Shown: positions 6,230-9,073 of the stretch, piece after piece | Layout: each line of letters begins with the position of its first letter | How positions within the stretch are numbered: position 1 is the first letter of the stretch | NCBI GenBank assembly: GCA_012960315.1 | Contig: DUBN01000068.1 | Location: 128,498 to 192,497, forward strand | Source of the DNA: Acidimicrobiia bacterium | GTDB lineage: Bacteria > Actinomycetota > Acidimicrobiia > Acidimicrobiales > Poriferisodalaceae | Direction: 5' to 3' | Length of the DNA stretch: 64,000 nt | Notes under the pieces: generated by a model | What the model was told of the DNA's origin: nothing | Databases searched by the model: none | What the model saw: only the letters and a program-made list of their open reading frames with translations | Position numbers and translations under genes: made by a program

Positions 6230-7021
6230 CTAAAAGGTGTTGGTGACCTCGGCAAACTGGTGGGCCGTGTGCGGGTAGCCCGCGACGGCTTTTATTACGC
6301 GACCTGAGTGCCCGGATATGGCGATGCCTAAATGCGCGGTAGCTATATGTTGAGGGTCTGCCATTCCTTCAGGAACCGAGCCATCGAACACTCTGGTCAT
6401 CGGGGTTGCGACGCCCCCAGGGCACACAGCATTAATGGTGATGCCCTTTCGCCTTAAAGAAGTTGTAGCTGCGCGAACTAGACCAACTGCTGCCCATTTC
6501 GTCATACTGTAAACGGGGTCTGGCGACCACGGAATGAGCCCTGCGAGGCTCGCTGTCACGGTAATAGCTCCGCCACCCAACCGATCGAATACCGGCACGA
6601 GAGCATGCAGACCAAAAGCCACTCCGTCAACATTTACGCCTCGGGCCCGCATGTATAAATCAAGATCCCATTCGCCGGGATCGTCCGCCGTTCTCGAGAA
6701 ATCGGCTGGATCCCTAAATTCGACTCCAGCGTTAAGAATTGCGATATCGAGTTGATCTAAATCAGCGACGGCCGAAGCCCAATCCTCAGGTGAGGTCACA
6801 TCTAGAGGAATGAATCGCCCCCCTGTTTCCTCAGCTATTGCTCGTCCGTTGCTTCCATCAAGGTCGCATACAAGGACCTGGGCGCCATCAGCTGATGCTA
6901 AACGTGCAGTCGCGGCACCAATACCCGACGCGCCGCCAGTGATTAAGACAACTTTCCCTGCAAGACCCCAGGTCTTAAGGTCCGGTAGCTCAAGCATTAG
7001 CGGGTCGGTAGAACTAGTCAT
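6230..7021 (-). CDS. Short-chain dehydrogenase/reductase
   Basis: A classical SDR of 263 residues: cofactor motif TGGASGIG near residue 29, acidic residue after the second strand (CDLDGS, suggesting NAD(H)), NAG near 97, catalytic Ser in TVTASLAG and YSMTK near 170. The C-terminal tail is longer than usual and lacks the typical final DGG strand, ending HTAHQFAEVTNTF. It probably oxidises or reduces a hydroxyacyl or alcohol intermediate. It is separated by 125 bp from the crotonase gene and has its own start signals. Confidence 0.88.
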   Translation of the reverse strand: MTSSTDPLMLELPDLKTWGLAGKVVLITGGASGIGAATARLASADGAQVLVCDLDGSNGRAIAEETGGRFIPLDVTSPEDWASAVADLDQLDIAILNAGVEFRDPADFSRTADDPGEWDLDLYMRARGVNVDGVAFGLHALVPVFDRLGGGAITVTASLAGLIPWSPDPVYSMTKWAAVGLVRAATTSLRRKGITINAVCPGGVATPMTRVFDGSVPEGMADPQHIATAHLGIAISGHSGRVIKAVAGYPHTAHQFAEVTNTF

Positions 7022-7027
7022 CGCGCG

Positions 7028-7033
7028 ATCCTA
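7028..7033 (-). promoter_or_regulatory. Putative -10 element, leaderless SDR start
   Basis: TAGGAT on the minus strand lies 6 nt before ATG at 7021 with no Shine-Dalgarno between them, fitting the leaderless pattern seen repeatedly in this window. Confidence 0.5.
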
Positions 7034-7060: not shown

Positions 7061-7855
7061 TTAGTCGTAACGCCTGACTGCACGCATCTGGTCTCCGCTG
7101 ATGGTTTTGTGTTCCAAGACAAGTTCGGTTACTTCATCGACCCATCCTAAATTTGTGAGGAGTTGGGCCTTCACCTCGTCGTCCCACCTCTCCCGTGCAC
7201 GCAGCACCACACGCGTGAGGTCTTCGATTTCCATGCCGAGGTCAACGTCGTAATAGATCTCGCTAGTGAGTCGTTCGTCAAGATGCGGACCTTGTAATCC
7301 AAATACGTTGCGAATAATGACGCTGATCATGTTCAAGTCGGTAGTGGCCCAAGTCAAGTTGTAGCTGCCGGTGACTCTTTCTTCGGCCAGAGCACCCGCC
7401 AAATATGACTTGATTTTGCGTGTGACCCAGTTTTCTATCTCACCAAATTGACGATCTGCGGGGCCGTAACTTTGAAATTGCAGCTGTTGGAAAACTGTTT
7501 CTGGCATGACTGGCCATCGACAGACGCCGAGATGTTGGTCGGTCCAACGGATCGTTAGACCGAGACATTCGAAGCCCATAATTTCACCCACCACACCGTG
7601 GCCAGCTACATGGGCTGCTGCTGCTCGATCCTGGTCCATGCGGTGATGGTAGACCTGAGTCATGTGCAGGGTGCCTCTAAAAGCACCCTTGTACGGGGTT
7701 TCGGCTGTGACTTTGACCTCGTATACCCGATACACCGATTCGCCCGTATCCCCATTGAGTTGGCCATCTGCAACGGCCTGAACTCTGCAGTGGGCATACC
7801 GGTTCTTTCGATATTCGCCCGAGTGTTCGGGTGGAAGAGAGCAGGTGTTACACAT
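7061..7855 (-). CDS. FtsH peptidase M41-like protein lacking the catalytic Glu
   Basis: The protein (264 residues from ATG 7855; 270 from an upstream TTG at 7873) matches the layout of the FtsH M41 domain without any AAA+ ATPase. It has AAAAHVAGHGVVGE near residue 82, where FtsH has HEAGH, then YLAGALAEERVTG and TTDLNMISVIIRN, the helix with the third zinc ligand Asp, and a closing TISGDQMRAVRRY helix. The zinc ligands His, His and Asp are kept, but the catalytic Glu is Val (codon GTA at 7607-7609). A Cys/His-rich N-terminus (CNTC, later HC) may bind metal. No membrane segment is visible. It is probably a non-proteolytic relative; function unknown. Confidence 0.62.
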   Translation of the reverse strand: MCNTCSLPPEHSGEYRKNRYAHCRVQAVADGQLNGDTGESVYRVYEVKVTAETPYKGAFRGTLHMTQVYHHRMDQDRAAAAHVAGHGVVGEIMGFECLGLTIRWTDQHLGVCRWPVMPETVFQQLQFQSYGPADRQFGEIENWVTRKIKSYLAGALAEERVTGSYNLTWATTDLNMISVIIRNVFGLQGPHLDERLTSEIYYDVDLGMEIEDLTRVVLRARERWDDEVKAQLLTNLGWVDEVTELVLEHKTISGDQMRAVRRYD

Positions 7856-7873: not shown

Positions 7874-8557
7874 TGGTACATAGACCTACTAAACGTTTGC
7901 TAAGTTAGTTTCATGTTGGATATCCCACCTGCATCGATCCCTCCGCGAGGTCCGCGAGGAGTTAGTCAACGAAAATCAGTCGCCCGAGATGGATGGTTGA
8001 CGCGGTTAGCGCGCCGTTTGGTTTTTCGGATGGAAGTTGGGACACCCCAGCGACCAGCAACCCTTTATCTGTCGTCATTCGACATGGTGCCCACCGGAAG
8101 CTGGGTCATTGTGACTGAAGAAAATCAAAACCCTGACTAGCTGCTACGGATTGAGTTGACGCCCAGTAGAAGCCACGAAGAAACACAGTTCCGCGACCGG
8201 TTGCATGGTGTTTAAAGTCGTTGCGGGATCAAGTTTCGTGTAGGCACGGAGTTGCCTTTGGAAATGGGGCCTGTTCCAAGTTGGCCCAGGCCCGGGTGGC
8301 AATAGCAACAGCGATCTCGAGTTAGACGAGTTGGGCAAGTAAAGGTGGTGGAGGACCTACCGAAACTTCCACGAAATTTTCGAACTCGCGGATCGTCCTC
8401 GAAACCCTTACGTAATTCCTTACTGACCCTTTCAAGGGGCGAAAAGTCAACGCCGAGGACTCGTAGTGAAAGTCGTCCGGTAAAGCGGGATACCCCAGAG
8501 GCCGACGTCTCAGCTTCCGTGGCTCCTGCTTTTCACTAAACGACTGAGTCTTGGCCT
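7874..8557. other. 684-bp stretch without a convincing gene
   Basis: Only three short frames exist: 75 codons at 7913-8140 (+), 64 at 8144-8338 (-) and 64 at 8345-8539 (+). Their products are Arg/Pro/Ser-rich, have no recognisable domain and lack good ribosome sites, so I do not call them. The stretch holds the candidate operator at 7887-7902 and a short CCCTT/AAGGG hairpin near 8431 without a T-tract. It could be decayed coding DNA or contain an unrecognised RNA. Confidence 0.5.
7887..7902. promoter_or_regulatory. Imperfect palindrome around AAACGTTT, candidate operator
   Basis: TACTAAACGTTTGCTA is symmetric at 12 of 16 positions around the perfect core AAACGTTT (7891-7898). It lies upstream of the M41-like gene, in the position of its promoter, and resembles TetR-family operators in size and shape. 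No regulator gene is close by. Confidence 0.3.
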
Positions 8558-9010
8558 TTATCGTTGACCTATACGTTGCTGGAATTTGCCTTTGCGGTCC
8601 GCCATCTTCGCGCGGATGTCGTCTGCCTCGGCTTGGGTGATCTCGCCGGACTCGACTCTGTTGGCTAAGCGCTCTTGCATCTCAGCTTTACGAGCGTCGA
8701 TGTCAACGTTCGATGGTCGTTCTCCGCGTTGGAATTTGCCTTTGCGGTCCGCCATCTTCGCGCGGATGTCGTCTGCCTCGGCTTGGGTGATCTCGCCGGA
8801 CTCGACTCTGTTGGCTAAGCGCTCTTGCATCTCAGCTTTACGAGCGTCGATGTCAACGTCCGATGGCTTGGACCACGAAGAACCCTCCGTTACCTTGATT
8901 TGACTGTCGTTACTCCAAGGCGCGGCGGCGATGGCAGCGGAACCGCCGGCGATCACGACTCCAGCGAGAACGATTGGGGCGACCCATTTCATCGTCGAAT
9001 TTCGCATCAT
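8558..9010 (-). CDS. Secreted or anchored protein with two near-identical 50-residue repeats
   Basis: The 150-residue product starts at ATG 9010 behind AGGAG with 7-nt spacing; an upstream frame extension to 9040 is less likely. Residues 6-30 are a hydrophobic signal or anchor ending in Ala-rich AAIAAAP. The remainder is two copies of a charged helical unit that starts NVDIDARKAEMQERLANRVE and runs through GEITQAEADDIRAKMADRKG. The helix pattern recalls small exported DUF2680-like proteins, but I do not claim membership. The repeat at DNA level differs by one base in 136. Direct CTCTCA repeats upstream suggest control by an OmpR-type response regulator. A role in envelope stress is a guess. 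Confidence 0.7.
   Translation of the reverse strand: MMRNSTMKWVAPIVLAGVVIAGGSAAIAAAPWSNDSQIKVTEGSSWSKPSDVDIDARKAEMQERLANRVESGEITQAEADDIRAKMADRKGKFQRGERPSNVDIDARKAEMQERLANRVESGEITQAEADDIRAKMADRKGKFQQRIGQR
8581..8866. repeat. 150-bp tandem duplication inside the gene at 8558-9010
   Basis: Bases 8581-8716 and 8731-8866 are identical except for one position (T at 8710, C at 8860), giving a 136-bp match with a 150-bp (50-codon) period. The frame is kept. Such identity, including third codon positions, points to a recent duplication or ongoing homogenisation. Confidence 0.95.
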
Positions 9011-9073
9011 ATTTGAACTCCTAGGTGTGGTTTCCGTCACCTGAAATCTTGTCTAACGAATCTGAACTTAAGC

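Follow-up and report, generated by a model that had tools for sequence, protein, structure and literature searches.

A free-standing M41-like protein with HVAGH in place of HExxH, conserved together with its neighbours in one family of Acidimicrobiales

Within the window, the whole 64,000-nucleotide stretch of DNA that was analysed, the minus strand at 7061..7639 encodes a 192-residue protein resembling the peptidase domain of FtsH, listed here as an M41-like pseudopeptidase. Residues 10-14, at the place of the HExxH motif, read HVAGH (7598..7612), with the valine at the position of the catalytic glutamate encoded by GTA (7607..7609). A preliminary description had reported this motif, and it was found as described on the minus strand, from 7612 to 7598 with GTA at 7609-7607. 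The equivalent of the third zinc ligand is Asp101 of the sequence TTDLN (codon at 7337..7339), which both phmmer and hmmsearch align with the aspartate of the NDL/NDI motif of FtsH. Immediately downstream, on the same strand, is a short-chain dehydrogenase (SDR) gene (6230..7021; PF00106, E 8.9e-34), and upstream, on the plus strand, is a small divergent open reading frame of 75 residues (7913..8140), which is conserved at lengths of 72-85 residues among the loci and for which no Pfam family was found over the cut-off. Further along, on the minus strand at 8558-9040, a predicted exported protein contains an internal tandem duplication of approximately 38 residues (RKAEMQERLANRVESGEITQAEADDIRAKMADRKGKFQ), and shorter single-copy versions of this protein are present in L002 and L003.

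The preliminary description had the protein extend from 7061 to 7855, giving 264 residues with a Cys-rich N-terminus. Comparison with orthologs places the start instead at the ATG at 7639; all 19 orthologs are exactly 192 residues long and begin at the matching ATG, and the 72 residues that precede it in the longer reading show no conservation as an N-terminus. The region upstream contains the remnant of a neighbouring DUF3237 gene (7703..7843, minus strand), which was located by tblastn with residues 98-142 of an intact DUF3237 protein (E 1e-8) and corresponds to the end of that protein. Relatives have intact copies of this gene (L012 and L013; PF11578, E 8.8e-28). A genuine Cys-rich N-terminal domain can be ruled out because the region contains this debris, which lies outside the true protein. 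Between the divergent start codon and the ATG of the pseudopeptidase there are 77-82 bp in genera g4, g5 and g6 as against 273 bp in the window, where the remnant occupies the extra space. A longest-ORF reading can in this way append 72 residues of a dead neighbouring gene to a protein. At another locus (L002, JAAZYR010000008.1, 1-1900) the SDR is cut after residue 206 and fused to the reversed 5' part of a DUF3237 gene, the 3' part of which is at the start of the contig; an inversion could have produced this arrangement, as could a misassembly.

By comparing the regions upstream of the orthologs we detected a −10-like TANNNT box lying at 7646..7651 (minus strand) in the window. It is found exactly 12 to 7 bases 5' of the ATG in 18 of the 19 orthologs, the exception being GACGCT in g1_G318. 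The background frequency of TANNNT is 0.0043 per position, though as the upstream sequences are related the 18 boxes do not represent 18 independent events. No promoter of the TTGACA/TATAAT type came up in a simple scan for sigma-70 sites. The position of the box fits a predicted leaderless transcript of the pseudopeptidase.

Assignment to the M41 family is not apparent from single-sequence searches. The 264-residue frame gave no match to Pfam or PHROGs and only weak matches to FtsH among PDB sequences (E 0.046). A search against PF01434, which the preliminary description had suggested as a check, gave 13.6 bits (E 0.062) for the trimmed protein, below the cut-off of 29.9, though at a lax limit 14 of the 19 orthologs matched, the best with an E of 9.5e-6. 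The window protein did not match TIGR01241 of NCBIfam, the best E value among A1 members being 0.025. Where the single sequence fell short, the profile made from the 19 orthologs aligned with six actinobacterial FtsH domains in hhalign with a probability of 95.3 and an E of 2.2e-8. An AlphaFold2 model was of moderate quality (pLDDT 66.5, pTM 0.70), with weak stretches at residues 33-45, 98-109 and 111-139; its input was four rows, drawn from the window and related loci, and an alignment of all 19 might have given it firmer support. The 50 PDB matches listed by Foldseek for this model comprised entries of FtsH, AFG3L2, YME1 and FtsHi complexes, with E values from 5.5e-5. With VIA-align the first 22 rows had Z scores of 10.7-14.2, the best being 3kds_F (Z 14.2), followed by 5iqj at 9.4 and then by values of 3.2 or less. 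Taken together, the hhalign, Foldseek and VIA results make the M41 relationship secure, and the protein is predicted to have the M41 fold.

No AAA+ ATPase domain is present, either in the longer reading frame or in the 192-residue protein, and the earlier proposal of an AAA-less M41 homologue is supported by this together with the hhalign result and the predicted fold. An FtsH would have an AAA+ domain before the M41 domain and a score above the PF01434 or TIGR01241 cut-off, neither of which was seen, and an active M41 peptidase would have HExxH with the catalytic glutamate, where all 19 orthologs have valine. Of the features that define FtsHi the protein has the degenerate HExxH (HVAGH or RVAGH) in an M41 domain; the AAA+ domain with Walker motifs is missing. 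The protein is thus outside the definitions of FtsH and of an active M41 peptidase, and fits the M41 family by its fold.

Of 39 genomes of a single Acidimicrobiales family that were searched, 19, from four genera, carry an ortholog. Val11 is invariant in all 19 and is written with three different codons (GTT in 7, GTA in 6 and GTC in 6). His14 and Asp101 are also invariant, as are Glu19, Cys25 and Cys40. The first histidine is kept in 16 of the 19, and in the remaining three (L027, L033 and L034, all of genus g6) it is replaced by arginine to give RVAGH; these three nevertheless retain the gene at 192 residues and in the conserved gene order. The orthologs contain no stops, and the median NG86 dN/dS is 0.117 over 30 pairs, restricted to those with dS below 2. 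Purifying selection is acting on a pseudopeptidase that has no M41 general base.

These observations bear directly on what had been anticipated from the window alone. A one-off mutation, a sequencing error or a gene in decay might have been suspected, given that in one genome a GAA-to-GTA substitution is all that would be needed and that there is gene debris directly upstream. With valine fixed in 19 species genomes by way of three codons, a dN/dS of approximately 0.12 and neither stops nor changes in length, this explanation is refuted by the ortholog set and we consider it to have virtually no chance of being right. Close homologues all carrying HExxH, which would have spoken against the original suggestion, were looked for, and all 19 orthologs have valine. 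The loss is not a recent one in a single lineage either, since the valine is common to four genera. On the other hand, valine is fixed in a clade without AAA domains, which the preliminary description had named as the sign of a functional loss, and the purifying selection points to the retained non-proteolytic role that had been put forward, for which a sensor or an adaptor had been suggested as possibilities.

Outside the family, searches of the order and class gave only weak matches, the best with an E of 3e-6, mostly to long FtsH-like frames, though an AAA-less protein with intact HEAGH (L037 from G146, see below) was also recovered. No relatives were found in viral contigs or phage records, and a phage origin was rejected. 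A plasmid origin was likewise rejected, the plasmid records yielding one weak match to an unannotated Fusobacterium sequence (E 4e-3), and none for the HEAGH paralog.

In all 19 loci the SDR starts 37-40 bp 3' of the pseudopeptidase stop. A TANNNT box, TAGGAT (7028..7033, minus strand), is situated 6 nt 5' of the SDR ATG in the window and is possibly a leaderless-type promoter belonging to the SDR itself. If the SDR has its own promoter, the two genes may lie side by side without having related functions. Among the family genomes, 21 have an SDR ortholog, two of which (G132 and G303) have no pseudopeptidase, so that the SDR can exist alone; a pseudopeptidase without the SDR was not seen in the family genomes searched. 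The divergent open reading frame lies upstream in all 18 loci with sufficient upstream sequence, in an inverted piece in the case of L002. Between it and the pseudopeptidase is a nearly invariant 20-bp element, CCTACTAAACGTTTGCTAAG (7885..7904, plus strand), that contains the palindrome AAACGTTT. The element is matched exactly at most of the orthologous loci, with small variants at the others, across the four genera, and its 12-base core, CGTTTAGTAGGT, has a single match in the whole of the organism's own genome. It overlaps the −10 region of the divergent gene and is upstream of the predicted pseudopeptidase promoter, which makes it a candidate for a shared operator of the divergent pair. It is tempting, though tentative, to see in this arrangement an undescribed bacterial module that would place the orphan M41 pseudopeptidase, together with the SDR and the small divergent protein, under the control of a conserved bidirectional promoter region; the M41 fold would then have become an adaptor or regulator, without catalysis, that acts on the oxidoreductase or its pathway.

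The same genome encodes one full canonical FtsH (L001) as a separate gene, so the pseudopeptidase is not a replacement for FtsH. It also encodes an AAA-less paralog with intact HEAGH (L035, on G000:C16), which has 41-42% sequence identity with the window protein and likewise has Glu19 and Cys25. Just two of the 19 genomes that carry the ortholog were found to have this paralog (L035/L036) as well. L037 is a further AAA-less HEAGH protein, the longer frame of which scores 36.4 bits against PF01434. These three proteins resemble the window protein in being free-standing M41 domains, but they have kept HEAGH and have different neighbours; those of L035, judged by eye, are Rieske-type oxygenase-like and alpha/beta hydrolase-like. 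In the unconstrained tree the HEAGH paralog falls inside the HVAGH set, while a tree holding the 19 together was not rejected (p-AU 0.31). The paralog may branch within the HVAGH proteins, in which case the sequence of gains and losses would be less simple. Searches with the pseudopeptidase and the paralog also gave weak matches to L045 (G651), L046 (G643) and L048 (G419), a second AAA+ M41 type from the same class that is distinct from the housekeeping FtsH.

In the characterised M41 enzymes the glutamate of HExxH acts as the general base. As this residue is absent, classical peptide hydrolysis would not be expected, and with no motor the protein could not thread substrates. The reading that we favour, with a probability of roughly two in three, is of a clade-specific M41 pseudopeptidase that lost the catalytic glutamate before the four genera diverged and has since been maintained under purifying selection for a role other than proteolysis. 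The most likely such role would seem to be non-catalytic binding: having lost the glutamate, the free-standing domain, still folded, would bind a partner through the peptide-binding edge and the pseudo-active site without cutting it. Given the constant gene neighbourhood, the SDR and the small divergent protein are the suggested partners, though a substrate destined for degradation may also be a candidate, and the protein would then act as an adaptor or regulator.

Three other explanations need to be weighed against this. With both histidines in 16 of the 19 orthologs and the aspartate in all of them, a metal could still bind and an altered chemistry would be possible. The protein might on this basis still be an enzyme, holding zinc through His10, His14 and Asp101 and using other residues, such as Glu19 or Cys25/Cys40, as a non-classical hydrolase or in another metal-dependent reaction. 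The invariance of His14, Asp101, Glu19, Cys25 and Cys40, and the presence of Glu19 and Cys25 in the HEAGH paralog, are in its favour; the arginine at His10 in three orthologs and the function of the missing glutamate as general base make it unlikely. A zinc-binding protein without catalysis, acting as a sensor as proposed in the preliminary description or having a structural role, draws on the same ligand positions. The part of the proposal that stands is the invariance of His14 and Asp101, and 16 of the orthologs could bind zinc. Binding is doubtful in the three g6 proteins, where RVAGH is tolerated with gene, length and synteny intact, which suggests that the orthologs need not all retain a complete set of zinc ligands. 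We consider a sensor or structural metalloprotein to be rather improbable.

Alternatively, the protein could be a partner subunit that pairs with an active M41 protein, either the AAA-less HEAGH paralog or FtsH, and tunes its activity. Both are encoded by this genome, and such pseudo-subunits exist in FtsHi complexes (PMC8197885, PMC11266112). However, the restriction of the HEAGH paralog to two of 19 genomes means that it is not a general partner, and the window protein has no AAA+ domain with which to join an FtsH ring, leaving this explanation with only a small chance of being correct.

The closest parallel is with the FtsHi pseudo-proteases, in which a dead M41 domain is kept for another job (PMC8197885). 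Chloroplast FtsHi1-5 share with the window protein the M41 fold, a degenerate HExxH, the substitutions in which are tabulated in PMC11266112 (Table 2), and a non-proteolytic role, although that of the window protein is inferred; FtsHi motor structures are among its fold matches. Outside chloroplasts, there is a report of FtsHi enzymes from a cyanobacterium, Prochlorococcus marinus SS120 (PMC8197885). The chloroplast FtsHi proteins have AAA+ domains and form ATP-driven import motors, whereas the window protein consists of the M41 domain alone with mainly the glutamate changed. With FtsH itself (MEROPS M41, PF01434, TIGR01241) it shares the order of elements, the fold, the second histidine and the position of the third-ligand aspartate, but at 192 residues it has neither AAA+ domain nor general base and scores far below the Pfam and NCBIfam cut-offs. 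Another small free-standing chain is that of 5iqj, a Vibrio cholerae protein of unknown function; it has 125 residues and gave a VIA Z of 9.4 over 109 residues. No description of AAA-less M41 pseudopeptidases was found among the open-licence papers searched.

The free-standing AAA-less pseudopeptidase is a variant of the FtsHi-like pseudoproteases. Because the best known of these carry an AAA+ motor, the contribution of the dead peptidase domain is difficult to separate out. A conserved M41 domain that stands alone, without the catalytic glutamate and with fixed neighbours, makes the role of such a dead domain directly testable.
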